This document shows, piece by piece, positions 15,265 through 33,684 of a stretch of DNA of 64,000 nt. Positions within the stretch are counted from its first letter, which is position 1; each line of letters starts with the position of its first letter. The DNA comes from Amycolatopsis mediterranei (lineage in GTDB: Bacteria > Actinomycetota > Actinomycetes > Mycobacteriales > Pseudonocardiaceae), in contig NZ_CP100416.1 in the NCBI RefSeq assembly GCF_026017845.1, positions 4,013,602 to 4,077,601 of the forward strand, read 5' to 3'. A model generated the notes under the pieces. The model saw only the letters and a list, made by a program, of their open reading frames with translations. It was not told the DNA's origin and made no database searches. A program made the position numbers and the translations under genes.

Positions 15265-18200
15265 TCAGATGTCTCCCAGTGCGGACGCTTCTCTCGATGC
15301 CCATTTCATGAGCCAGGCATTCCAGGCCAGGCCGACGTCGGCAATGCGGGCGAATTCGAGAACACATGCCGCGAGGTCGTCACGTGTCAGTTCCAGCTGG
15401 CCGGTTGCTTTGTTGCGTTGGGCATGGCGGAGGAAAACGTCGGCGAACAACGGCAGGCGGGTTCCGATCAGTCGCCAGACTGCGGACAGTTCGACCGGGC
15501 GCCAGATGTCGCGCTCGAACGCGGCCAGCAGGATGGCGACGAACAGCAAGTAGAAGCCGGTCGAGGAAGCCGGCTCGCCCGGAGGCGGTGGAAAATTCTC
15601 GCGGACGATGGTTGCGTCGAAAGGTGGTTGGAGCTCGGTGAGCATTTGCCCGGCCTGCTCTTCGGCGAGTTCATCGGAAGCCAGCAACTCGGCGAGCACG
15701 GTCTTGTTGTCGAACATCGGCCGGCTTGCCAGTGCCGGCGACGAATCGGTCTCGGGCTCGCTGGAGCGAACGATCGTTCCGCCGGGCCGGCTGATCTCGG
15801 CCATCGCGGCCACCACCGACCACGACAGGGGTACCACGGCTTCCGGGGCATCCGCAAGGCAGGCGAGCATCTCGTGCAATTCCGGGTCGTGCTCACCGCC
15901 GCCGAAGTACATGCGTAGCCGATACACCAGTGGGCCTGGTTTTTCCTGGTCGTGTATCGACGCCGCAACCGACAGGAGAGCCCGGGGCCCGAGGGTTGCC
16001 ACGTATTGCTCGATACTGACCAGCCTGCGGCGGCATAGTCCGGCGAGCATTTCCGGAAAGTCGAGCCCAAGCCGGCTCGACACGCCGGCCAGCGATGAGC
16101 GAAGGATTTCCGGGTTTCCTTCGCCTGGCTTGGCCAGTTCTGCGGGAACGAATCCATTGCCGACCTGGAGCAACAATTCGTCGACGACTGCGGCGCCGAT
16201 GGCGGCATCGGAAGCGGGATCGTCGCCGAGCACTCGCGCGCAGGTCCGCCGGGCGATGGGGATCATCTCGTGGGGGACGTTCAACAGCAGGACGAGCAAC
16301 TGTGGTTCAAGGCTGCGGCCATAGCCGGCGATGGCCGTGGTGAAGAGCCGTTCGAGCACTCGCGGAGTCGGGCGCATGAACCGCAGGCAGCGTAGTGCGA
16401 AGTCGAGGTGGACGCGCCGTGAGTTGTCCAGGGCCAGTAGCTCCAGGCAGTCGTCGATACCGTTCGCGCGCCGAGTGTCGAACTGCTGGATGGCGATCTG
16501 CGGAACCACCTCGCTGGAGTCGAATTGAATCATCGGCCGGATCATTTCTATCAAGTCCCGGGCGCTGTCGCAGTGCCGGACGATGAAACAGGCGGAAAAA
16601 TACTCCAGGAATGTCCGGTGGGTGAAACCGAAGAGTCTCTCTCCTCGTTCCGACGTTCCCGTCTGAACCAGGAGCCACGCGCGGCCCGCGCAGAAGTCGA
16701 GGAAGTCCTGTGCTTGTTTGGACGCTGATTCCGCGTCATCGATGACGTTTCGGTGGAAGTAGTCCTTGATGTTTTGCTTCAGGCGTCCCTCGGTGAGCCC
16801 GCTCGCCTTTCCGGTGTTGTTCAAGAAATTGTAGGCCAACTCTTGGATGAGGTAGCGGGTTTGGGTGTTCGCCTTGAAGGATATGGGGACGCGGCGAACC
16901 CGGTCCCAGCGTTCGAATAGCAGTTCGGCGCATTCCTCGTACACCTGCGGGCGGTTCTCCGGGATGTACCCCTCGTATTCGTAGATCATGCACAGGAGCG
17001 AGAGCATCAACGGGTTGGTGCGCAAATCGCCGACGTGCACGCTGTCTTCGAGGAAGTTGCGTGCCCGCTGTTCGGCGGAGAACGCGCGGGGATCGGCGAT
17101 GATCTTGAACCACCGCTCGACGTAGTGCTGCAGTTGCTCGTCGGTGAAGTCCGGCAGAAAATAGACGGGAAACGACGCCGAGTCGAGGCGGGCGCGCAAA
17201 TACCCCTCTTCCCTCGAGGTGACCACGACGGTGACCAGTGGGTACCTTCGGCTGAACATCTCGATGGCCGTCACGGCGGAGCGCCGCAGGTTGATATCGG
17301 TGATCTCGTCCAACCCGTCGAAGACGACCACGGCGAGTCCCAGCTGGAGGACGTCTCTGAGGGTGTCGGCGGTCAATTCCGATTGAGTGACGACCCGGAG
17401 GCTTTCCGCGAGAATGCCGAGGTAGGAGTCGCTCGGCGACGGATGGTCCTTGAGTTCCACGATCATGGGCGCGGACACGGTTTCGACCTCCTGGCCCGCG
17501 ACGCGGTAGAGCAGGTTGCGGATGAACGTGCTCTTGCCCGCCCCCGGGTGGCCGACGACGACGAACCGCCGGTCCGTCAGTTTTTCTTCGGCGATGGGTG
17601 TCGTGTCGGTCGCCTGTTCGTCCGTGCGGAAGTCCGGCCACGGCGTCAAGAACCGGGGTACGTAGATCTGCTCGATCGGTACCTGGTGGTCTTCCCGCGA
17701 GTGCGGCATCACCAGCTTGGCGTAGCGGGTGCGCATCGCGTGCCGTATTGCTTGGATGGCTGTCCGCGCAGCGGCGAGCCGCCGGCGTTGCGGGGACAGT
17801 GTCCACCGTTCGGTGATCGCCGAGGAAAGTGCCGACTGTGCGGACGCATCTTGACGGAGGCTCGTGGCGTATACCAGGTCGTCGGCGCTGAAGGCATTTT
17901 CCTCGCGGAGCTGGTGAATGTGGAGCCGGACGTCATCACACAGATCTGCCCACAATGCGGCGGCGATGCGTCCGGACTGCTCCTCCGGCAGCTCCAATTT
18001 ATCGGAGAGCTCCGCGGAGAAGGTCTGCGCGAGTCGTTCGCGTTCCAGCTCGGCTCCATCGGCGTCTTCGGTGATCTCGAGATAGGCGAAAATCTCGAGC
18101 AGGCCGATGCACAGGCGTCCGGTGAGGTACGCCGAGAGCTTTTCTTCTTGCGCTTTGGCGAGTTTCACCTGTTTCCAGTTCGAAGACTTTCGAACCGGTG

Positions 18201-18324
18201 AAGGTGCCGGCCGCAGCTTTTGCGCGGCGGCCTTCCACGCGGGAGCCGAGGAACGGACGACGATGCCGCCCACCGCCTTCGCTGCCGATTGCGCGACAAG
18301 AGTGGCCAGCACGAGTGATGACAT
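15265..18324 (-). CDS. NACHT-domain NTPase (NLR-like, candidate antiphage protein)
   Basis: 1019 residues from ATG 18324; the frame stays open further upstream, but the sequence there is poor and lacks a ribosome site. Residues 1-240 are mostly helical, resembling NACHT N-terminal helical domains. The NACHT module follows: Walker A GHPGAGKST with Lys264, and Walker B VVVFDGLDEI with DGLDE at 336-340. A sensor-like segment is TVVVTSREEGYL, and the winged-helix part contains FGFTHRTFLEYFSACFI. The C-terminal 450 residues are helical and repeat-like, the usual sensor region. Bacterial NACHT proteins of this size protect against phages in tested cases. GC content looks lower than in flanking genes, which suggests acquisition. 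It stands alone, convergent with the SWIM gene and divergent from a UvrD-like helicase. Confidence 0.87.
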   Translation of the reverse strand: MSSLVLATLVAQSAAKAVGGIVVRSSAPAWKAAAQKLRPAPSPVRKSSNWKQVKLAKAQEEKLSAYLTGRLCIGLLEIFAYLEITEDADGAELERERLAQTFSAELSDKLELPEEQSGRIAAALWADLCDDVRLHIHQLREENAFSADDLVYATSLRQDASAQSALSSAITERWTLSPQRRRLAAARTAIQAIRHAMRTRYAKLVMPHSREDHQVPIEQIYVPRFLTPWPDFRTDEQATDTTPIAEEKLTDRRFVVVGHPGAGKSTFIRNLLYRVAGQEVETVSAPMIVELKDHPSPSDSYLGILAESLRVVTQSELTADTLRDVLQLGLAVVVFDGLDEITDINLRRSAVTAIEMFSRRYPLVTVVVTSREEGYLRARLDSASFPVYFLPDFTDEQLQHYVERWFKIIADPRAFSAEQRARNFLEDSVHVGDLRTNPLMLSLLCMIYEYEGYIPENRPQVYEECAELLFERWDRVRRVPISFKANTQTRYLIQELAYNFLNNTGKASGLTEGRLKQNIKDYFHRNVIDDAESASKQAQDFLDFCAGRAWLLVQTGTSERGERLFGFTHRTFLEYFSACFIVRHCDSARDLIEMIRPMIQFDSSEVVPQIAIQQFDTRRANGIDDCLELLALDNSRRVHLDFALRCLRFMRPTPRVLERLFTTAIAGYGRSLEPQLLVLLLNVPHEMIPIARRTCARVLGDDPASDAAIGAAVVDELLLQVGNGFVPAELAKPGEGNPEILRSSLAGVSSRLGLDFPEMLAGLCRRRLVSIEQYVATLGPRALLSVAASIHDQEKPGPLVYRLRMYFGGGEHDPELHEMLACLADAPEAVVPLSWSVVAAMAEISRPGGTIVRSSEPETDSSPALASRPMFDNKTVLAELLASDELAEEQAGQMLTELQPPFDATIVRENFPPPPGEPASSTGFYLLFVAILLAAFERDIWRPVELSAVWRLIGTRLPLFADVFLRHAQRNKATGQLELTRDDLAACVLEFARIADVGLAWNAWLMKWASREASALGDI

Positions 18325-18527
18325 GACAAAGATTCTACCGAACGATCGTTTCGAGCCCGTCCTGGTGGCATCGTCGCAAACGATCTCGTCACGGTTGCTC
18401 TTCTCCGCGGGCATCCCCCGAAAGGAGCAGCGCGAACACACGTACGGCCGGGATGGCGGTACGAATCCCTCGGATCGGCATGTAATCGTTCGATCAAGCC
18501 CTGCCGCTTCCCCCGGGAGGAGACCCG

Positions 18528-20027
18528 ATGCCCGCACGCCCGCCGACGTCCGAACAACGGGCCGCGGTCGACGCGTTCCGCGCCGGTGCGCACCTGGTGC
18601 TGCAGGCCGGCGCGGGCACCGGGAAGACCACCACCCTGACGATGCTGGGCGCGAGCACCCGCCGCCGGGGCCGGTACCTGGCGTTCAACAAGGCCATCGC
18701 GACCGAGGCGCGCCGCCTGTTCGGCCCGAACGTGGCGTGCGCGACCGCGCACAGCCTCGCGTTCAAGGCGGTCGGGCACCGCTACCAAGATCGGCTCAAC
18801 CACCCGCGGATGGCCACCGCGAAACTCGCGCGGTCGCTGGGCATCACCATGGAAGTGACGATCGGCGAGCGGAAGCTGACCACCGCCGCGCTGTGCTACG
18901 CCGCCCAGCGGACGGTGATCCTCTACTGCTACTCCGCCGACGAGACCCTCGACCGGCAGCACGTGCCCTGGCTCAAGGGCATCGGCGAGGAACACCTGCA
19001 CGACCAGCTCACGCACTTGGTGCTGCCCTACGCCCGGCGGATGTGGGCGGACCTGCAGAACCCCGAGCGCGGGCGGGTGCCGTTCAAGCACGACCACTAC
19101 CTGAAGATGTGGGCCCTGACCCGGCCGCGGCTCTACGGCGACTTCTTCCTGCTGGACGAAGCGCAGGACACCAACCCGGTCGTCGAGCAGGTGTTCCTCG
19201 CCCAGGGCGAGCACGCCCAGCTGGTCATGGTGGGGGACTCCGCGCAGGCCATCTACGGCTGGCGCGGCGCCCGCGACGTCATGACCGGCTTCGCCGGCCG
19301 CCGATTGGCGTTGTCGCATTCGTTCCGGTTCGGGGACGGCGTGGCCGCCGAGGCGAACCGGTGGCTGGCCATCGCCGGCGCGCCGATCCGCCTCACCGGC
19401 TCTCCCGCGGTGGCCAGCAGGGTGGAAACCGTCGAGCAGCCGGACGCGATCCTGTGCCGCACCAACGGAGGCGCGATGGCCGAGATCCTCACCCTGCTCG
19501 GCAAGGGCCGCCGGGTCGCGCTCGCCGGCCGCGCCGCCGTTCTCCAGAGCCTGGCCGAGGCCGCGCGCGACCTGCAGGCCGGCCGCCGGACCACCCACCC
19601 CGAGCTGCTGCTGTTCGCCTCCTGGGGCGAAGTCCAGGACTACGCGGAGTGGGACCCCGACGGCCGCGACCTGCTGTCCTTCGTGGAGGTCATCGACGAA
19701 CACGGCGCGGACGTCGTGCTGGACACCCTCTCCCGGCTGGCCGCCGAAACCCACGCCGACGTCGTGGTCTCGACCGCCCACGCCGCGAAAGGCCGCGAAT
19801 GGGCGAGCGTCCGCATCGCCGACGACTTCCCCGAGCCCGTCGACCCGGAGAACACGGGCTCCGACGGTGAGCCGCTCCCGGGCAGGATCGAGCCGAGCGA
19901 AGCCCGGCTCGCCTACGTCGCCGTCACACGGGCCCGCAACCGCCTCGACCTCGGGGGCTTGGCCTGGATCAACCGGCATCCCGACGGCAACCCCGGCTCC
20001 GAGCAGCGCGGCCGGGCAGCCAGCTGA
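18528..20027 (+). CDS. UvrD/Rep-like superfamily 1 helicase
   Basis: 499 residues, shorter than UvrD (about 720), closer to the minimal Fbh1-like or phage-type forms. Motif I is AGAGTGKTTT with Lys33, and motif II DEAQDT starts at Asp210. Motif III is VGDSAQAIYGWRGA, motif V is VSTAHAAKGREW, and motif VI is YVAVTRARNRL near the C-terminus. All ATPase motifs are intact. It probably unwinds DNA 3' to 5'; a role in repair or in defence beside the NACHT gene is open. GGGAGGAG precedes the ATG. The 204-bp divergent region with the NACHT gene contains the palindrome AACGATCGTT at 18341-18350. Confidence 0.86.
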   Translation: MPARPPTSEQRAAVDAFRAGAHLVLQAGAGTGKTTTLTMLGASTRRRGRYLAFNKAIATEARRLFGPNVACATAHSLAFKAVGHRYQDRLNHPRMATAKLARSLGITMEVTIGERKLTTAALCYAAQRTVILYCYSADETLDRQHVPWLKGIGEEHLHDQLTHLVLPYARRMWADLQNPERGRVPFKHDHYLKMWALTRPRLYGDFFLLDEAQDTNPVVEQVFLAQGEHAQLVMVGDSAQAIYGWRGARDVMTGFAGRRLALSHSFRFGDGVAAEANRWLAIAGAPIRLTGSPAVASRVETVEQPDAILCRTNGGAMAEILTLLGKGRRVALAGRAAVLQSLAEAARDLQAGRRTTHPELLLFASWGEVQDYAEWDPDGRDLLSFVEVIDEHGADVVLDTLSRLAAETHADVVVSTAHAAKGREWASVRIADDFPEPVDPENTGSDGEPLPGRIEPSEARLAYVAVTRARNRLDLGGLAWINRHPDGNPGSEQRGRAAS

Positions 20028-20160
20028 CGCCAGCTCGCTGGCCCGCGTCGAAGCCGAGGCAGGCGCCCGGCGGCCGATCGGGGCCTTGCTCGGCAAACTC
20101 CCCGGTGCGCATCGGCGGGTTGACAGGAGCGGATCCGCCACGAACACTGGGCGCCGGAAA

Positions 20161-20176
20161 ATGTTATCGCTAACAT
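20161..20176. promoter_or_regulatory. LacI-type operator upstream of the beta-strand-repeat gene
   Basis: The dyad ATGTTA-TCGC-TAACAT has perfect 6-bp arms and differs by one base from the perfect palindrome in front of the first arabinofuranosidase gene. The central CG with outward TGTTA/TAACA arms is the style of LacI/GalR operators. It ends 13 bp before the GTG start, so repressor binding would block transcription or its early elongation. The cognate regulator is not in this window. Confidence 0.75.
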
Positions 20177-20189
20177 CTTGAGGTAAGGC

Positions 20190-22439
20190 GTGCGCGTTCA
20201 GCGTGGCGGTTGCCGGTTTTCAGTAGTACTGACCGCGTTCCTCGTCGCGGTCCTGGGCGCGCCGGGTGCGTTCGCGCAATCCGGGAGCAGAGATGTCACC
20301 GCCGACGTCCTCGCGAACCGGGACGTGACCCTGCACGGGGACACCATCGTGCGGCTCACCGGCGGGGTCACCACCTACACGGGCGTGCTCAGCGGGGAAG
20401 GCGTCTTCACCGTCGGGGGAACGGGCACGCTGGTGCTGGTGAAGGACAGTGACTTCACCTTGCCGGCCGATCGCCGCCGGCAGAAGGTCGTCACCGTGGG
20501 TGGCAACCATCCGGTGACCACGATCGACAACCCCGATCCGCCCGCGGTGATCGTGCAACGCGGTGCGACTCTCCAGTACGGGAACGGATCGGGGGGAGAC
20601 GGCGTCATCGGGCATTTCGTCCAGGCGCCCGAGATTTCGCTGAACACGCTCAACCACCAGATCGACGGGACCCTGGACCTCGCCGTGCACCGGGCGGTGA
20701 ACCCGGGCGTGATCAGCGGGTCCGGACTCGTCAAGCAACGGCGGAGCACCTGGCCCGGCATCGAGTTGCCGGGTACCCACCCGTTCTCGGGCACGCTCTA
20801 CGTCGGCACCGGTGCGGACTTCGGCAGCCTGCACTACCTCACGGCGATGCCGCACGTGCGCAAGGTGGTCAACCAGGGCTCGTTCATCCACAATGCACCG
20901 GACGGCGAAGTCGTCACCGACGCCGCCGACATCTACTCGCAGTTCTACGGCAACGACATCAACTTCCACACCTGGGGGTCCGGGGTGGTCCGGATGTCGG
21001 GCGTGTACAGCTGGTCGGACAACGGGTCGGACACCGATCCCGCGCTGAGCGCCGCGTCCCGGAACTTCGCCGCGGTGCCCCACAGCGACAACAAGCGCGG
21101 CATCAACATCGAGGGCGCCACGGTCACCTGGGGCGATGGCACGAACAACCGGTTCTTCCTGCCGGGCAACGAGAAAACCGTCTACATCGACATGCACGCC
21201 GAGCAGAACGGCACCCGCAGCGTGCTGACGTTCGACTACAACGGCCCGGTCACCCTCGACGCGCCCATCTCCGGCGGCCGGTACCACGACACGATGGCGG
21301 ACGTCGGCCGCGGTGACGTCGTCGTCGCGGCGACTCGCGGCAACGCGGTCACCTTCACCGCGCCGCAGAACTACGACGGGGACACGACGATCGGTGCCGG
21401 CGCGTCGCTGCGGCTGGGCGACGGCAGCCCGCAGGGCGACAGCGCGCTGCTGCCGACCGGCAAGATCGTCGACAACGGCGAGCTGATCCTGCAGAACGCC
21501 ACCCGGGACGCCGACCTGGGCCGCATCGGCGGCAAGGGCGCGGTGACCCAGGCCGGGCCGGCCACCACCACCCTGACCGGGGAGCTCACCTACACGGGGA
21601 GGACCACGGTGAAGGCCGGCACGCTCGTGGTCGCCGGCGGCTCCCTCGCCGCAAGCACCGCCGTCGACCTGCCGGCGGCCGGGGCGACGCTGGACCTGAC
21701 CCGGGCCGGCGACCCGACGGTCGGCAACCTCTCCGGCGCCGAGGGCGCCGCGGTGGCGGCCGGCCGCACGCTGACCGTCCGCGCCACGGCCGCGACGACG
21801 TTCGGCGGCACCCTGACCGCCGCTGACGGCGTCACCAAGACCGGCGCCGAAACGCTCACTTTGACCGGCGAGCACACGACTCCGAAGAGCGTGTGGACTG
21901 TCCGGGAGGGAACGCTCGCGCTGGCCGGGTCCGTCCAGGCGCGGCAGCTCGTCGTGCAGCTCGCCGGCGCGGTGCGGGCCGCCGGGACGGTGGAGGGTGC
22001 GGTGGACAACGCCGGGACGGTCGAGGCGACCGGCATGACCGTGCGCGGCGCCTACACCCAGCGGCCCGGCGGCCGCCTCACCGGCACCCGGATGAGCGTC
22101 ACCGGCGCGGTGACGCTCGCGGGGACCTTCGCGCCGGATCCGGCGCAGGGCCCCGGCGTGCTCATCGACCACCAGGGCGCCGGCCCGATCGACGGCACCT
22201 TCGACGGACTGCCCGAGGGGGCGGCCGTCGGTCCGCTGCGGCTCACCTACCACGGTGGCGACGGCAACGACGTTGCCCTGACGGGCGATTCCGGCGCACT
22301 CCGGCGTGACAGCGCGGTAGCGCCGGTCGCGACCGTGTCGAGTTCGGGGCCGGTGTGGTGGTTCTCGGCGGCCGGCGTGCTGGTGCTGCTGGTCGCCGTC
22401 GTGCTCGTGGTGCGCAGGCGGGCACGGGACCGCCGCTGA
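20190..22439 (+). CDS. Secreted, membrane-anchored beta-strand-repeat surface protein
   Basis: 749 residues starting at GTG 20190, with GAGG 6 bases upstream. A signal peptide (about 1-29, ending APGAFAQ) is followed by roughly 690 residues of Gly/Thr/Val-rich, predicted beta-solenoid sequence. Units resemble the autotransporter-associated beta-strand repeat (for example LTYTGRTTVKAGTLVVAG near 470-490). A C-terminal hydrophobic helix (about 720-741) and basic tail (RRRARDRR) would anchor it in the membrane. It has no sortase motif and no Gram-negative beta-barrel. No catalytic domain was recognised. It shares an operator type with the downstream arabinofuranosidases, so a role in binding or displaying arabinan-degrading activity is inferred. 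Confidence 0.8.
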   Translation: MRVQRGGCRFSVVLTAFLVAVLGAPGAFAQSGSRDVTADVLANRDVTLHGDTIVRLTGGVTTYTGVLSGEGVFTVGGTGTLVLVKDSDFTLPADRRRQKVVTVGGNHPVTTIDNPDPPAVIVQRGATLQYGNGSGGDGVIGHFVQAPEISLNTLNHQIDGTLDLAVHRAVNPGVISGSGLVKQRRSTWPGIELPGTHPFSGTLYVGTGADFGSLHYLTAMPHVRKVVNQGSFIHNAPDGEVVTDAADIYSQFYGNDINFHTWGSGVVRMSGVYSWSDNGSDTDPALSAASRNFAAVPHSDNKRGINIEGATVTWGDGTNNRFFLPGNEKTVYIDMHAEQNGTRSVLTFDYNGPVTLDAPISGGRYHDTMADVGRGDVVVAATRGNAVTFTAPQNYDGDTTIGAGASLRLGDGSPQGDSALLPTGKIVDNGELILQNATRDADLGRIGGKGAVTQAGPATTTLTGELTYTGRTTVKAGTLVVAGGSLAASTAVDLPAAGATLDLTRAGDPTVGNLSGAEGAAVAAGRTLTVRATAATTFGGTLTAADGVTKTGAETLTLTGEHTTPKSVWTVREGTLALAGSVQARQLVVQLAGAVRAAGTVEGAVDNAGTVEATGMTVRGAYTQRPGGRLTGTRMSVTGAVTLAGTFAPDPAQGPGVLIDHQGAGPIDGTFDGLPEGAAVGPLRLTYHGGDGNDVALTGDSGALRRDSAVAPVATVSSSGPVWWFSAAGVLVLLVAVVLVVRRRARDRR

Positions 22440-22566
22440 GCTGTCCGAACGGGACACCGGGCTGCGAGGTTGCCGCCCGACCTGACTGGCGTCTTGACGC
22501 GTCGCCGGCGTTCGTCGATAGTGATCTCAATCCGAACGCCGAGCGGAGGTCGTTCGCCGCTTGAAC

Positions 22567-22580
22567 TGTTAGCGCTAACA
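22567..22580. promoter_or_regulatory. Perfect LacI-type operator upstream of the arabinofuranosidase operon
   Basis: TGTTAGCGCTAACA is a perfect 14-bp palindrome, 26 bp before the ATG of the first GH54 gene. The architecture (AT-rich arms around a central GCGC) is that of LacI/GalR-family sugar repressors. Only a one-base variant occurs elsewhere in the window, at 20162-20175. Induction by arabinose-containing sugars is inferred from the gene it controls. Confidence 0.82.
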
Positions 22581-22606
22581 TTCGTCATCGATGAACAAGG
22601 GAGTTC

Positions 22607-24157
22607 ATGGTGCCTGCGCTGCCCGTGTTTCGCCGACTGCGTCGCGGAATGACTGTTTCCGCGGCCGTGGTGGCGCTCGCTTTGCCCGCCCTGGTCGCGT
22701 TGGCCGGTACTTCACAGGCGGCCGCACAAGGGCCCTGTGACATCTACGCCGCGGGCGGGACGCCGTGCGTCGCGGCGCACAGCACCACCCGCGCTTTGTT
22801 CGCTTCCTACAGTGGACCGCTCTACCAGGTGCAGCGGACGTCGGACAGCGCCGTGCGGGACATCGGATTGCTGTCCGCCGGTGGCGTTGCCGACGCCGCC
22901 GCGCAGGACTCCTTCTGCGCGGGCACCGTCTGCACCATCACCCGCGTCTACGACCAGACCGGCAGCAGCGGCAACACGCTGGTCTACCAGGGCCCCGGGG
23001 GAACCGGTGGCGCGGACACGGCAGCTGTCGCGACCACCGAGGCGATGACCGTCGGGGGCCACAAGGCGTACGCGTTGTACATCAAGCCCGGCAACAGCTA
23101 CTTCGCCGGCGGCTCGGGTGTGCCGACCGGTAGCTCGCCGGAAGGCGAGTACATGGTCACCAGCGGGACGCACGTCAACAACGGCTGCTGCTTCGACTAC
23201 GGCAACACGGAAACCGACCACCGTGCCGATGGCAACGGCGCCATGGACGCCATCAACTTCGGCACCGAATGCTGGTTCGGCGGGTGCAGCGGAACCGGGC
23301 CGTGGGTGCAGGCGGATCTGGAGAACGGCTTGTTCGCCGGCGGAAGCAAGGCGTGGAACCCGAACCAGGTCGCGCAAACGAGCCCCTTCGTCACCGCGAT
23401 GCTGAAGAACAGCGGCACCACCCAGATGGCGCTGCAGGGGGCCAATGCCCAGTCCGGGAGCCTGACCAAGTTCTACGGCGGCGCGCTGCCCAGCGGCTAC
23501 AACCCGATGCACAAGCAGGGCGCGATCATCCTCGGCAGCGGCGGCGACTGCTGCCAGACCAACCGGAACGACAGCGCGGGCACCTTCTACGAAGGCGCCA
23601 TGGTCAAGGGCTACCCCTCCGATGCCACCGACGCCGCGGTCCAGGCCAACATCGCGGCCGCGGGTTACGCAACCGGCACCCCCTTCACCGCGGGTGCGAA
23701 GGTTTCGCTGCAGGCCACCACTTCCTGCTGCACCAACGACTACCTGCAGCACGACACCGGTGACGACAGGGTCGTGATCGCGCCGGTGACCGCGGGCAGT
23801 TCCGCGACCGACAAGGCGGATGCCACCTGGATCATCCGCCCCGGCCTGGCCGACGGCACCTGCCTCTCCTTCGAGTCGGCCAACGCCGCGGGCAGCTACC
23901 TCAGGCACTACGCGTTCCAGCTCCACCTCACGCCGAAGGACGGGACGGCCCAGTTCGCCGCCGATGCCACCTTCTGCCCGCAGCCGGGGAACAGCGGCAC
24001 GGGCTACTCGTTCCAGTCGGTCAACTACCCGGCCAAATACATCCGCCATTACGCCTCGACGGCCTACATCGCGAGCAACGGCGGGACCAACGCCTGGGAC
24101 ACCACCTCGCTGTGGCGTGCGGACACCACCTGGCTCGCCGCCACCCCCTGGAGCTGA
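22607..24157 (+). CDS. abfB: Secreted GH54 alpha-L-arabinofuranosidase with CBM42 (copy 1)
   Basis: 516 residues. A signal peptide of about 38 residues ends in SQAAAQ. The GH54 catalytic domain runs from about 40 to 350 and starts with the family's GPCDIYAAGGTPCVAAHSTT. The predicted nucleophile is Glu239 in ADLENGLF and the predicted acid/base is Asp314 in GSGGDCC, spaced like Glu221/Asp297 of the Aspergillus enzyme. Residues about 365-516 form a CBM42 arabinose-binding beta-trefoil (FQSVNYPAKYIRHY). It should release arabinose from side chains of arabinan or arabinoxylan outside the cell. An AAGGGAG site and a LacI-type operator lie upstream; a close paralogue follows after 50 bp. Confidence 0.95.
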   Translation: MVPALPVFRRLRRGMTVSAAVVALALPALVALAGTSQAAAQGPCDIYAAGGTPCVAAHSTTRALFASYSGPLYQVQRTSDSAVRDIGLLSAGGVADAAAQDSFCAGTVCTITRVYDQTGSSGNTLVYQGPGGTGGADTAAVATTEAMTVGGHKAYALYIKPGNSYFAGGSGVPTGSSPEGEYMVTSGTHVNNGCCFDYGNTETDHRADGNGAMDAINFGTECWFGGCSGTGPWVQADLENGLFAGGSKAWNPNQVAQTSPFVTAMLKNSGTTQMALQGANAQSGSLTKFYGGALPSGYNPMHKQGAIILGSGGDCCQTNRNDSAGTFYEGAMVKGYPSDATDAAVQANIAAAGYATGTPFTAGAKVSLQATTSCCTNDYLQHDTGDDRVVIAPVTAGSSATDKADATWIIRPGLADGTCLSFESANAAGSYLRHYAFQLHLTPKDGTAQFAADATFCPQPGNSGTGYSFQSVNYPAKYIRHYASTAYIASNGGTNAWDTTSLWRADTTWLAATPWS

Positions 24158-24207
24158 CCGCGCACCGGAAGTCCGGCGACGCATTTCCCCTGTGTGAAGG
24201 AGTTTCC

Positions 24208-25764
24208 ATGCCTCGACCATCCTGGCTCCGCCGCGCGCTCTTCGCGGCCGGTACCACCACCACGCTCGCCGCCGGCCTGCTCGCGGCCACGGCAACGACC
24301 TCCCAGGCCGCCGCGCAAGGACCCTGCGACATCTACGCCGCGGGTGGTACCCCGTGCGTGGCCGCGCACAGCACCACCCGCGCCCTGTACGCGGCGTACA
24401 ACGGCCCGCTCTACCAGGTCAAGCGTGCCTCCGACAACGCGACCAAGGACATCGGCGTGCTGAGTGCCGGGGGATACGCCGATGCCGCCGCGCAGGATTC
24501 GTTCTGTGCCGGCACCAGTTGTGTCATCACCGTCCTCTACGACGAATCCGGCAAGGGAAACCACCTCACCCAGGCGCTCAAGGGGTACTGGCCCGGGCCG
24601 GCCGCGGGCGGGAACGACAACCTCGCCAACGCCTTCGAAGCACCCGTCACGGTCGCCGGGCACAAGGCGTATGGCGTCTCCGTGGCCCCCGGCACCGGCT
24701 ACCGCAACAACCACACCTCGGGCATCGCGACCGGCGACCAGCCCGAGGGGATGTACGCGATCTTCGACGGCACGAACTACAACGGCGGCTGCTGCTTCGA
24801 CTACGGCAACGCCGAGACGAGCGGCAACGACGACGGCAACGGCACCATGGAGGCCATCTACTTCGGCAACAACAAGGGCTGGGGCTACGGCAGCGGCAAC
24901 GGCCCCTGGATCATGGCCGACCTGGAGAACGGCTTGTTCTCCGGGGTGAACCAGCACTTCAACGCGGGCGACCCGACGGTCGCGAACCGGTTCCAGACCG
25001 CCATCGTCAAGGGCGGCCCGAACCAGTGGGCCATCCGCGGCGGCAACGGCCAGGCGGGCGGCTTGTCCACCTACTACAGCGGTGTGCGCCCCGCCGTCTC
25101 CGGCTACAACCCGATGAAGAAGCAAGGGGCGATCATCCTCGGCATCGGCGGTGACAACAGCGTCGGCGGGCGCGGCACCTTCTACGAAGGCGTCATGACC
25201 GCGGGCTACCCCTCCGACGCCACTGAGAACGCGGTCCAGGCCAACATCACCGCGGCCGGCTACAGCAGCGCCCCGACCGGTTCCGGAACCCTCACCCCGG
25301 GTGCCAAGGTTTCCCTCCAGGCGACGACCGCGTGCTGCACTTCCGACTACCTGCGCCACGACGACGCCGACGACAAGGTGGTGATCTCCGCGGTCGACTC
25401 CGCCAGCGCGGCCACCACCAAGTCCGCCGCCACCTGGATCGTCCGGGCCGGCCTGGCCGATACCTCTTGCCTGACCTTCGAATCCGCCGACCAGCCCGGC
25501 CGTTTCCTGCGCCACTACGCTTTCCGGCTCCAGCTGAACGCCGACGACGGCGGCAGCGCGTTCGCGCAGGACGCCACGTTCTGCTCCACGGCGGGCAACA
25601 GCGGCGTCGGGCGTTCCTTCCAGTCCGTCAACTACCCGGCGAAGTACCTCCGCCACTACAACTACACCGGTTACGTCGCCGGCAATGGCGGCACCAACCC
25701 CTGGGACGCCACGACGTCGTGGGCGCAGGACACCAGCTGGCTCACCGCCTCGCCCTGGAGCTGA
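24208..25764 (+). CDS. abfB: Secreted GH54 alpha-L-arabinofuranosidase with CBM42 (copy 2)
   Basis: 518 residues from ATG 24208, preceded by GAAGGAG; an in-frame extension upstream lacks a ribosome site. It has the same layout as the preceding gene: signal peptide to about residue 36, GH54 domain, and CBM42 from about 368. Predicted catalytic residues are Glu240 (ADLENGLF) and Asp316 (GIGGDNS), with exactly the 76-residue spacing of characterised GH54 enzymes. The surrounding loops differ from copy 1, so substrate preference may differ. No separate operator is visible, so it is probably co-transcribed with copy 1. A strong terminator follows. Confidence 0.95.
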   Translation: MPRPSWLRRALFAAGTTTTLAAGLLAATATTSQAAAQGPCDIYAAGGTPCVAAHSTTRALYAAYNGPLYQVKRASDNATKDIGVLSAGGYADAAAQDSFCAGTSCVITVLYDESGKGNHLTQALKGYWPGPAAGGNDNLANAFEAPVTVAGHKAYGVSVAPGTGYRNNHTSGIATGDQPEGMYAIFDGTNYNGGCCFDYGNAETSGNDDGNGTMEAIYFGNNKGWGYGSGNGPWIMADLENGLFSGVNQHFNAGDPTVANRFQTAIVKGGPNQWAIRGGNGQAGGLSTYYSGVRPAVSGYNPMKKQGAIILGIGGDNSVGGRGTFYEGVMTAGYPSDATENAVQANITAAGYSSAPTGSGTLTPGAKVSLQATTACCTSDYLRHDDADDKVVISAVDSASAATTKSAATWIVRAGLADTSCLTFESADQPGRFLRHYAFRLQLNADDGGSAFAQDATFCSTAGNSGVGRSFQSVNYPAKYLRHYNYTGYVAGNGGTNPWDATTSWAQDTSWLTASPWS

Positions 25765-30050: not shown

Positions 30051-31487
30051 TCAGAAGGCGGTCACGATGGATCGTGCGGCTACTGCCGGTGACGCCGGGT
30101 TCTCGGCGGTACGGCGGGCGCCGCCGGTGATCGGCAGGCCACCGGTGGGGGCGAACATGCCCATGGTGAACGTCGAGCCGCTCGGGGCCGAGGCGATGGG
30201 AACGATCGGGAAGGCGTTGCCGCCCGCCCGGACCGAGGTGGAGATGTAGTCGCCGAACATGCGGCCCTGCGAGGTGTTCGGGATCCAGGACAGGTTCATC
30301 GGCCCGGCCACCTGGGTGGCGGCGCTCCAGCTGGTGCCGCCGTTGGTGGAGGAGATGAACCCGACGTCGAGCCGGCAGGTGGCGGCGGTGCAGCCGGCGG
30401 TGGGGTAGAAGTAGTAGGTCAGACCGATCCGGGCGCTCGCACCGGAGGTCGACGGGTCGACGCCGATGCCGGGGACGAAGTGGTCGACGGTGCCGGTGGT
30501 GGCGTCGATGGGAATGCGCGTCGGGGCACCCCAGGTGGTTTCGCTGGTGGACTTGCTCAGCACGATGTCGTTGCTCGGGCAGCCGGAGCGGAACCGGCAG
30601 TCCGACCACGCGACGTAGGCGGTGCCGGCGCTGTCGATTTCCGCGCTGGGCAACGCTTCCTCACGCAGGCCGCCGGCGGCGTCGTGGTGGCTGACGCTCG
30701 AGACGAGGACGGTGGAACGCCAGCTGGCGCCGCCGTCGATGGAGCGGAACGAGCGGATCTGGTCGTTCAGCGAGAGGTAGGGCACAAGGACGGTCCCGTT
30801 CGGCCGGACGACGGGCTGGCCGCCGAGGCCGGTGGCGCCGTCGCCGGTGGCGCGGGCCGGGCCCCAGGCGAGGCCGCCGTCGCTGGAGGTCTTCATCCGG
30901 AGGGAGTCGCCGGAGCTGGTGATGTCGTATTCGGTGTAGCAGTTGCCGAAGAACGGGCTGGTGGCGGTGTTGTCGCAGACGATCCAGTTCTTGTCCAGCG
31001 AGCCCGTCGCGGTGGTGACGGGGTTGCCGAAGGTCTTGCCGCCGTCGGTGGAACGGCTGGTGAACACCGGGGTACCGCTCGGGCAGTTGACGCCGAGGGA
31101 GGAGATCAGCCAGACGTTGTGCTTGGCGTCGAAAGCCACGGCGGCGTCGCTGATCTGGCCGCAGGGGCCGCCGGTGTTGGCGGTGGTGCCGGGCAGGAAG
31201 CCCTGGGTCCAGGTGGCGCCGCCGTCGGTGGAGGTGGCGAAGCCGATGTCGGACGAGCCGCCGCCGGACACGCGGCCGACCTGGAAGGCCGAGACGATCG
31301 TGGAGCCGAACGCGAACGTGTCCGGTTCGACTTCGGTCTGGTGCTGGGCTTGGGCGTCGGTGAACGGATCGGAGCTGACCTGGGTCACGGCGACGTTCGC
31401 GGACGCGGAGGTCGCGGACACCAGCAGCCCGCCGACCACGACGGCCGGCAGCAGCGTGGCGGTGAGCATTCTTCGGGAAAGCGGCAT
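30051..31487 (-). CDS. Secreted BNR/Asp-box repeat protein (exo-sialidase-like fold) A
   Basis: 478 residues from ATG 31487, with GAGAAGGTGA upstream. The signal peptide ends ATSASA near residue 31. Five Asp-box-like repeats are visible (STDGGATW, STDGGKTF, SSDGGLAW, SIDGGASW, STNGGTSW), which indicate a beta-propeller. The sialidase catalytic Arg triad could not be confirmed, so it may be a glycan-binding or non-sialidase hydrolase. It is divergent from a second propeller protein, with a shared 310-bp promoter region. Confidence 0.82.
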   Translation of the reverse strand: MPLSRRMLTATLLPAVVVGGLLVSATSASANVAVTQVSSDPFTDAQAQHQTEVEPDTFAFGSTIVSAFQVGRVSGGGSSDIGFATSTDGGATWTQGFLPGTTANTGGPCGQISDAAVAFDAKHNVWLISSLGVNCPSGTPVFTSRSTDGGKTFGNPVTTATGSLDKNWIVCDNTATSPFFGNCYTEYDITSSGDSLRMKTSSDGGLAWGPARATGDGATGLGGQPVVRPNGTVLVPYLSLNDQIRSFRSIDGGASWRSTVLVSSVSHHDAAGGLREEALPSAEIDSAGTAYVAWSDCRFRSGCPSNDIVLSKSTSETTWGAPTRIPIDATTGTVDHFVPGIGVDPSTSGASARIGLTYYFYPTAGCTAATCRLDVGFISSTNGGTSWSAATQVAGPMNLSWIPNTSQGRMFGDYISTSVRAGGNAFPIVPIASAPSGSTFTMGMFAPTGGLPITGGARRTAENPASPAVAARSIVTAF

Positions 31488-31764
31488 GGCGCGTTCACCT
31501 TCTCCGGTGAGGTGCGGCAGTGAGCGGGCAGCGGGTTCGCCGCTGCGGGCCATGACGACTGTCGATCCAGCCACTCGGATCGGGTGCCGTAAAGAGGTCT
31601 CCACCGATCCAGACCCGTTCGGGGGCGGCCGAACGGCCGAAGAATTGGCCGTGCGCTTACTTGCTCCCCTGTGGACAGTGGACGCACCGGTAACGACCGG
31701 GCGTTCCGGGACGACCATTCCCACGGCGGCCAAGGCACGGTCGATTCCGTGTGGCTGACCGCAA

Positions 31765-31797: not shown

Positions 31798-33684
31798 GTG
31801 TCGCGTCCCCGCACCATTTCCGCGATCAGTGTGACGATTCTCAGTACGGCCGCGCTCGGCCTGTTCGCCGGCGCCCCGGCCACCGCCCAGCCGTTCGGCT
31901 ACCACCAGCTCAACCGCGTGCAGCAGCGCCACGTCTCCGGGCTGCTGTCCACGGTCCTCAACGGCGAAGACCCGGTCAACGCCGCCCGCGCGCCGGCCCC
32001 GAACCGGGCCACGCCCTCGGCCGCGGCGCCGTGCCCCAACCGGTTCGGCGGGAACGTCAAGGTCAACCAGAACTGCCTGAACCTCACCGACGCCGATCTG
32101 CAGGGCCGGGCGCAGGCCCAGAACGAGACCTGGGCGGCCGCCGATCCGAACGACCCCGGCCACGTCATCGCCACCTACAACGACTACCGCCGCGGCGACG
32201 GCACCTGCGGCGTCAGCTACTCCCTCGACGGCGCCCGGACCTGGGCCGACGCGACCACGCCGAACGGCTTCAGCCGCGGCACCGACTTCGGTGGCACACC
32301 TCGCGAGTACTGGCAATCCGGCGGTGACACCTCGGTGGCCTGGGACTCCCGCGGGAACGCCTACCTCTCGTGCCAGGTGTTCAACCGCGGCAACACCGTC
32401 TCGCCGAACCCGGACCAGTCCAGCGCGTTCCTGGTCTTCCGTTCGACCGGGACCAACGGCGCGTCCTGGAACTTCCCCGGACGGCCCGTCGCCACCCACG
32501 ACGACACCGCGGGCGCCGGGAACTTCCTGCTGGACAAGCAACTTTTGACCGTGGACAGCAACCCGCGCAGCCCGTTCCGCGACCGCGTCTACGTGTCCTG
32601 GACGACCTTCGCCGACGACGGCACCGGCTACATCTTCGAGGCCTATTCCGCCGATTACGGCGAAACGTTCTCGGCGCCGGTGCTGGTCAGCGGCGATACC
32701 TCGTTGTGCGCCAACCCGCTCGGCTTCCCGACCCCGCGCGGCCGGTGCAACCAGAACCAGGACTCGCAGCCGTTCGTCGGCCCGGACGGCGCGTTGTATG
32801 TGGTGTTCAACAACTTCAACAACGCGGTTTCGGGACCGGCGGACAACCACAACCAGGTGCTGCTGGCCCGCTCGGCCGACGGCGGGCAGAGCTTCTCCAC
32901 CCCGGTGCTGGCCGGCAACTACCACGAGCTGCCCGACTGCGCGACCTACCAGAACGGCCAGGACCCCGGCCGCGCCTGCATCCCGGAGAAGGGACCGTCG
33001 GCGAACTCGGTGTTCCGCGCGAGCAATTACCCGATCGGCGGCGTCGACCCGCGCAACCCACGCCGGATCCTCGTCACCTACGGCTCGTACATCAACCGCA
33101 ATTCCAACGAGACCACCGGTTGCACGCCGACCGGGTTCAACCCCGCCACCGGTATCAACACCTACACCGGGGTGAAGAACGGCACCTGCAACAACGACAT
33201 CGTCCTGTCGGCTTCGACGAACGCCGGCGCCTCGTTCGCCGGCGGCACCACCGACGTCCGGCAGCTACCGGTGGTCACCACCGCACCCGGCCAGGCCCGG
33301 ACCGACCAGTTCTGGCAGGGCGCCGCGTTCGGCCCGGACGGCACCTTCGCCGTCAGCTACTACGACCGCCAGTACGGCGCCGACGAGACCACCGGCTTCT
33401 CCGACATCACGGTGTCGGCCGGGTTCACCCACACCCGGGCGACGTCGAGCAGCATGCCGCCGCCGACGCAGTTCACCGGTACCTTCTACGGTGACTACGC
33501 CGGGATCGCCGTCACCGCCCGTACCGCGTATCCGGTCTGGTCGGACACCCGCCCACCGGAGGAGTTCCTCTGCCCCGGCACCGGCACGCCCGGCACCCCG
33601 CCGACCGCTTGCCAGGCCGGCGCGCCGAACGCGTCGATCGCCAACGACCAGGACATCTACACCACCGGCGTCGGCATCCGCTGA
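31798..33684 (+). CDS. Secreted BNR/Asp-box repeat protein (exo-sialidase-like fold) B
   Basis: 628 residues from GTG 31798, preceded by AGAGGGAG. The signal peptide ends GAPATAQ near residue 31. Asp-box-like units include SLDGARTW, SADYGETF, SADGGQSF and STNAGASF, with several Cys pairs stabilising loops. It ends cleanly without an anchor, so it should be released. No clear catalytic set for sialidase was found. It is divergent from another secreted propeller protein and may share a substrate; a bidirectional hairpin follows the stop. Confidence 0.82.
   Translation: MSRPRTISAISVTILSTAALGLFAGAPATAQPFGYHQLNRVQQRHVSGLLSTVLNGEDPVNAARAPAPNRATPSAAAPCPNRFGGNVKVNQNCLNLTDADLQGRAQAQNETWAAADPNDPGHVIATYNDYRRGDGTCGVSYSLDGARTWADATTPNGFSRGTDFGGTPREYWQSGGDTSVAWDSRGNAYLSCQVFNRGNTVSPNPDQSSAFLVFRSTGTNGASWNFPGRPVATHDDTAGAGNFLLDKQLLTVDSNPRSPFRDRVYVSWTTFADDGTGYIFEAYSADYGETFSAPVLVSGDTSLCANPLGFPTPRGRCNQNQDSQPFVGPDGALYVVFNNFNNAVSGPADNHNQVLLARSADGGQSFSTPVLAGNYHELPDCATYQNGQDPGRACIPEKGPSANSVFRASNYPIGGVDPRNPRRILVTYGSYINRNSNETTGCTPTGFNPATGINTYTGVKNGTCNNDIVLSASTNAGASFAGGTTDVRQLPVVTTAPGQARTDQFWQGAAFGPDGTFAVSYYDRQYGADETTGFSDITVSAGFTHTRATSSSMPPPTQFTGTFYGDYAGIAVTARTAYPVWSDTRPPEEFLCPGTGTPGTPPTACQAGAPNASIANDQDIYTTGVGIR

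Follow-up and report, generated by a model that had tools for sequence, protein, structure and literature searches.

Why should the gene of a surface protein share an operator with a pair of arabinofuranosidase genes? This question is raised by a stretch of 64,000 nucleotides of Amycolatopsis mediterranei (contig NZ_CP100416.1, positions 4,013,602 to 4,077,601; hereafter the window). Two palindromes, neither assigned to a strand, precede the surface-protein gene (20190-22439, + strand) and two tandem genes of glycoside hydrolase family 54 (GH54), respectively. Our analysis of the sequences points to an arabinose regulon of an AraQ-type LacI regulator that includes an anchored, glycan-binding beta-helix protein, and we regard this explanation as fairly probable.

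The operators in the window and across the chromosome

Operator 1, TGTTATCGCTAACA (20162-20175), is one base off a perfect palindrome, and operator 2, TGTTAGCGCTAACA (22567-22580), is perfect. They are the only two copies in the window at up to two mismatches, while shuffled sequences gave an expectation of 0.01. Each operator sits just downstream of a promoter-like sequence. The putative promoter of the surface gene, TTGACA-17-AACACT (20120-20148, + strand), was read by eye, having been missed by the consensus scan, and ends 13 bp before operator 1. The sequence TTGACG-17-GATAGT (22494-22522, + strand), the one hit of that scan against 0.1 expected in shuffles, ends 44 bp before operator 2.

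Both genes behind operator 2 encode secreted GH54 arabinofuranosidases with a family 42 carbohydrate-binding module (CBM42, PF05270). PF09206 is covered in full (1-315 of 315) in the first (22607-24157, + strand, E = 1.5e-136) and in the second protein (24208-25764, + strand, E = 4.5e-159). The open reading frame (ORF) of the second gene is listed from 24112, with a likely ATG at 24208, 50 bp past the first gene. Given this short gap and the operator before the first gene only, the second having none of its own, the pair probably forms one transcription unit.

The palindrome was searched across the 10.6-Mb chromosome at up to two mismatches, with the reversed pattern as control. It occurs at 29 sites (10 exact, eight with one mismatch, 11 with two), compared with seven for the reversed pattern, all with two mismatches. 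None of the 29 sites falls inside a gene called by our home-made, composition-based gene caller, compared with five of the seven control sites, one control locus having no called gene. Besides the site of the surface gene, all 17 sites with at most one mismatch have a glycan enzyme, a sugar gene or a LacI gene as neighbour, the called gene lying no more than about 215 bp away. These neighbours are GH54 (three), GH43 (two), GH62 (two), GH127, GH35 and GH27 enzymes, an aldose epimerase, a sugar-binding ATP-binding cassette (ABC) protein, three LacI proteins, a DUF1996 protein followed by GH43, and a GDSL esterase. Glycan-related neighbours, among which a DPBB (expansin-like) and a ricin-lectin protein were counted, are also found at 10 of the 11 two-mismatch sites, two of them 317-728 bp away; site 9013721, judged by gene starts, has none. 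GH59, GH2 and galM genes likewise carry sites. Five of the seven GH54 genes of the genome have a site in front or stand second behind one, and four of the 11 GH43-matching proteins have one before their gene or operon.

These results agree with much of a first-pass annotation of the window. It had placed the two palindromes at the above coordinates without a third window copy, which the search to two mismatches bears out, and had put two secreted GH54/CBM42 genes behind operator 2, as the PF09206 and PF05270 matches confirm. Its proposal of one LacI-type regulon joining the surface gene to the GH54 pair is supported by the genome-wide set, and the random scatter that it had named as the contrary outcome was not found (10 exact and eight one-mismatch sites, where the reversed pattern has none of either kind).

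Relatives and predicted fold of the surface protein

The surface protein was found over its length in five of 80 genomes of the genus, in one of them (G078) in two frames; this relative was excluded from the alignments. G050 and G077, with weak matches to the repeat stretch only, were left out, and L093, L108 and L109 were not used. An alignment-based scan of a species genome collection with two peptide patterns yielded 12 loci, including two known before, from Amycolatopsis, Lentzea, Saccharothrix, 'Nocardia sp. NRRL S-836', Actinospica and Trebonia. In 394 sampled genomes of the class, a search at E ≤ 1e-40 added eight relatives besides that of the window, all from a single further genus, perhaps Streptomyces, whose genomes are 8-11 Mb in size.

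Outside this second genus, an operator lies 26-36 bp before the start of the surface gene in 11 of 15 distinct loci (five from Amycolatopsis, five from Lentzea, and the 'Nocardia sp. NRRL S-836' record). The sequence of operator 1 is identical in all five Amycolatopsis loci, which also keep both promoter blocks at about the same distance before it. The five Lentzea loci and L103 carry TGTGAWCGYTAACA, with two to three mismatches to the perfect palindrome, and slightly altered promoter blocks. Genes of GH43, GH54, GH62 or GH127 lie within about 10 kb of the surface gene in 11 of the 15 loci, whose neighbouring genes were Pfam-scanned selectively (p ~9e-9 at an assumed background of 10%, the loci being related and the families chosen after looking). 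Since both the operator and these enzymes accompany the gene in 11 of 15 loci, the surface gene is, judged from sequence, a member of the putative arabinose operator set.

GH115 is nearby in the two Saccharothrix loci, a sugar-binding protein and a LacI in the Trebonia locus, and an eCIS-core protein is the single scanned neighbour in the short L. indica locus. In the second genus, all eight loci have rhamnogalacturonan-lyase-like and GH43-like neighbours, recognised by their N-termini, as in a cluster for the rhamnogalacturonan I (RG-I) part of pectin, and five of the eight have a second GH43, likewise by its N-terminus. Pfam matches at one of them, L122, comprise a rhamnogalacturonan lyase (RhgB), two GH43 proteins, a GDSL esterase, DUF2264 and LacI. 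As a separate observation, a gene divergent from the surface gene in G056 (L089, 11398-14046) shares the operator region and encodes an 883-residue ricin-lectin and BNR/Sortilin-like protein; a shorter gene is called at the same divergent position in G075 (L090).

The 749-residue surface protein, translated from a GTG start, is predicted to be a membrane-anchored beta-helix. A signal-like segment at its N-terminus, and a C-terminal membrane segment (22353-22409, + strand) without a sortase-like motif and followed by a basic tail, confirm its earlier description as a secreted protein with a C-terminal membrane anchor. In the predicted structure model, residues 726-748 form a C-terminal helix. 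A hydrophobic C-terminal stretch with a basic tail is found in all 20 relatives, the stretch being weaker in the eight from the second genus (mean hydropathy 1.33-1.77). Sortase anchoring was considered and rejected: an LPXTG-like motif is absent from the last 110 residues in 20 of 20, and PF00746 stays under its cut-off (E = 0.036). Residues 452-481 (21543-21632, + strand) match PATR (PF12951, E = 2.4e-7, above the curated cut-off), which is matched in all 12 aligned relatives at E ≤ 1. The window protein thus shares its repeat with the PATR, or autotransporter-associated beta strand repeat, proteins (PF12951, TIGR02601). It differs from PATR autotransporters in having a C-terminal membrane helix instead of a matched outer-membrane barrel; no barrel family is among the eight families matched at E ≤ 1 by the 12 relatives.

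What does the beta-helix do? The fold searches returned a fold common to polygalacturonases, lyases and adhesins and singled out no one family; no Foldseek match to the model reached E ≤ 0.001. The first-pass annotation had called the protein non-enzymatic. It is true that no catalytic Pfam family is matched at E ≤ 1 in any of the 12 relatives, but this word is unproven and should be dropped, as the predicted fold also occurs in polygalacturonases and lyases and the N-terminal half shows good conservation. The protein may represent an enzyme family not yet described: a hydrolase or lyase for RG-I, arabinan or arabinogalactan, built as a beta-helix and anchored in the membrane. We consider this rather unlikely, because catalytic Pfam families and significant Foldseek matches are both lacking and the matches to adhesins and autotransporter passengers are at least equally good. 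A candidate catalytic set suggested by the first 12 sequences, H260, E308 and H336, is also weakened, since Q, K and L replace all three in the same five of 20 relatives; this joint change suggests that the three residues touch each other.

The top fold matches are adhesins and autotransporter passengers, and the sole solved sequence relative is a 64-residue stretch of the autotransporter protease 8e7f (E = 2.6e-5). With the C-terminal anchor, these matches would also suit a structural or adhesive protein, serving in attachment to plant debris, as a spacer or in biofilm, that is merely co-expressed on plant material. This seems improbable to us: conservation is higher in the N-terminal half than beyond residue 525, and RG-I genes still accompany the gene in loci that lack the full operator. 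Many acidic and aromatic residues are invariant across the relatives. Most likely, the surface protein is a cell-anchored binder of arabinose-rich pectin, with an enzyme of a new family as the second choice. More tentatively, it may be the founding member of a new family of beta-helix enzymes or glycan receptors, anchored in the membrane and directed at the arabinan/RG-I portion of pectin, with representatives in Amycolatopsis, Lentzea, Saccharothrix, Actinospica, Trebonia and the further large genus.

The candidate regulator

Among the LacI-type domains of the genome (38 matches, 30 read), LacI 5097430 and its neighbouring paralogue 5085208 have the recognition helix SHMTVSRV, which the other 28 read lack. 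LacI 5097430 (G000:C1:5097430-5098473) carries TGTTATCGCTAACA in its promoter, and the gene after it is preceded by an exact site, so that the sites at 5097351 and 5098511 precede the regulator and the transporter genes. A LacI gene with a matching operator, as looked for from the first-pass annotation on, is thereby available as a candidate. The gene heads a cluster of a sugar-binding protein, an ATPase, two permeases, an arabinofuranosidase with an ASD1 domain, and araB-araD-araA. AraA, at 5109465, was identified by PF02610, an FGGY kinase was taken as AraB, and the permeases and AraD were recognised by sequence only. No site with up to two mismatches lies directly before araB-araD-araA; TGTGAACGCTCACA, with three mismatches, occurs at 5103177, before the arabinofuranosidase gene preceding araB. 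In the genus survey, the strict motif is present in 62 of 80 genomes, and a relative of the LacI protein (E ≤ 1e-60) in the same 62 (p = 1/C(80,18) = 2.8e-18). LacI 5097430, putatively of the AraQ type, appears to be the likeliest regulator of the operators. DUF1996 proteins recur at L017 (5080-6855), with an operator and a GH43 gene, and at L107 (14054-15502), beside the ara cluster; both have a similar RRTKIATG segment near the N-terminus.

According to the available part of the published account, AraQ is a LacI-family regulator in three non-bifidobacterial actinobacteria, with an araFGH-type transporter and araBDA adjacent and sites before such genes and galM; repression was proposed where the site overlaps the -10 element or lies downstream of it (PMC5928203). 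The Amycolatopsis system resembles this regulon in its LacI beside an araFGH-like transporter and araBDA and in its sites before the transporter and galM, the AraQ motif having been published as a logo. It differs in the sites before many secreted glycosidases and the anchored beta-helix protein, and that part of the AraQ account contains no mention of such a protein (PMC5928203). AauR, AbfR and BauR, listed in Table 1 of the same source, also combine a LacI with arabinofuranosidase genes. As far as described there, however, these are local repressors of bifidobacterial arabino-oligosaccharide genes with small regulons, whereas here one motif precedes at least 18 units across the chromosome (PMC5928203).

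The operators might instead belong mainly to another LacI, either the paralogue by the GH35 gene or LacI 3516579 or 3664817, in a galactan/pectin rather than an arabinose regulon. Sites do lie upstream of or right behind those LacI genes and accompany GH35, GH27, GH59, GH2 and galM. The paralogue 5085208, 77% identical to LacI 5097430 and with an exact site and a GH35 gene behind it, has the same helix and is hence a possible co-regulator. We nevertheless find this alternative unlikely, because the recognition helices of 3516579 and 3664817 differ, the promoter of the araBDA-linked LacI gene carries a site, and relatives of this LacI occur in exactly the 62 genomes that have the motif. The operator does occur in the promoters of LacI genes 3516579 and 3664817 (L070, 6001-6014; L076, 6001-6014), which suggests a cascade of sugar repressors, as these two have other helices. 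That the palindromes are chance, or are shared as a by-product of adjacency, is very hard to believe: only 2.4 kb separates the two sites, but the site counts are non-random in window and genome, and mere adjacency is ruled out by G008, G056 and G075, where the operator is kept and no GH54 gene is seen beside the surface gene.

Several observations nonetheless weigh against an arabinose regulon of LacI 5097430 that includes the surface protein. Chance may account for some of the 11 two-mismatch sites, since the reversed control also gives seven of this kind. Divergent genes flank some of the sites: a RibD-like gene lies closer to 4560382 than GH127 does (69 vs 187 bp), and site 1924662 is about equally near both genes. 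GH54 genes 3765613 and 3773304 have no site at up to three mismatches in the 19 kb read, and seven of the 11 GH43-matching proteins have none of the 29 sites in front; the operator set therefore takes in a good share of the arabinosidases but not all of them. Relatives from Saccharothrix (two), Actinospica and Trebonia (four of the 15 loci) have no operator before the gene. The second genus lacks the full operator and has only TGTTATC(C/G) before the surface gene in all eight loci (L119-L126, 8719-9078 in reading direction), which may be an operator remnant or a promoter element. The co-occurrence of motif and LacI in 62 genomes partly reflects linkage, because single-site genomes often have the site right before the LacI gene itself, and the genomes are themselves related. 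Sites stand upstream of or right behind four LacI genes, so that cross-talk among LacI regulators is possible, and GH27, GH35 and GH59 also fit a galactose signal. Finally, the conserved N-terminal half of the surface protein is modelled less surely, with predicted local distance difference test (pLDDT) values of 37-58 and 38-69 for the block of residues 201-300.

Proposed mechanism and biological meaning

In the mechanism that we propose, the AraQ-type LacI 5097430 would bind both window palindromes as operators. Without arabinose, the repressor just downstream of the promoters would block transcription, and an arabinose-derived signal would release it. This release would switch on between 18 (sites with at most one mismatch) and some 27 transcription units, whose products may break down the arabinan and arabinogalactan side chains of pectin, take up the sugar and provide the surface protein. 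The latter would be exported, would be retained in the membrane through its C-terminal segment, and would project a long beta-helix. Its conserved N-terminal half most likely binds an arabinose-rich pectic glycan near the cell, while the GH54, GH43 and GH62 enzymes would trim this glycan.

SRRP53608 of L. reuteri is anchored to the cell wall. According to the available part of its description, this surface beta-solenoid of a Gram-positive bacterium recognises RG-I (PMC6973325); the general kind of role, which the first-pass annotation did not know to be described for Gram-positive beta-strand-repeat proteins, was therefore already known. SRRP53608 is a serine-rich repeat adhesin, whereas the Amycolatopsis protein bears PATR, a membrane anchor and a sugar-type operator (PMC6973325, as far as available). 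PfbA of Streptococcus pneumoniae has a cleft like that of carbohydrate enzymes and, according to the available part of the source, is a wall-attached adhesin for host proteins (PMC3718772). No sequence relation of the surface protein to SRRP53608 or PfbA was found. Among the matches listed from the open-access literature, there was no paper on PATR-type membrane-anchored proteins under arabinose control and none on an operator set with such a surface protein. The exact operator words occur there only in one unrelated virus paper, and no paper in the open-access literature searched combines 'autotransporter-associated beta strand repeat' with Streptomyces.

Two other gene pairs of the window should be mentioned. 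Genes for a NACHT-type STAND ATPase (15265-18537, - strand) and a UvrD-like helicase (18528-20027, + strand) stand head to head with overlapping listed ORF starts. The ATPase is weakly similar to the antiphage protein EruA, and the two genes are a possible defence pair. At 30051-31733 (- strand) and 31798-33684 (+ strand), divergent genes encode secreted-looking proteins with BNR-like 'DGG/DGA-TW' repeats, recognised by eye from the ORF list.

Actinobacteria play an important part in the decomposition of plant debris, and to our knowledge little is known about how they hold pectic polymers at their surface. An uncharacterised anchored family that is accompanied by arabinan/RG-I genes in several genera, with a defined operator and a candidate repressor, offers a directly testable candidate for a surface protein that binds or cuts glycans, and the operator set provides a ready gene list for co-regulation tests. 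If our reading is true, the surface protein would work like the surface glycan-binding proteins of Bacteroidetes, and several genera of filamentous actinobacteria would share the strategy of displaying a pectin-handling protein at the cell surface under sugar control.

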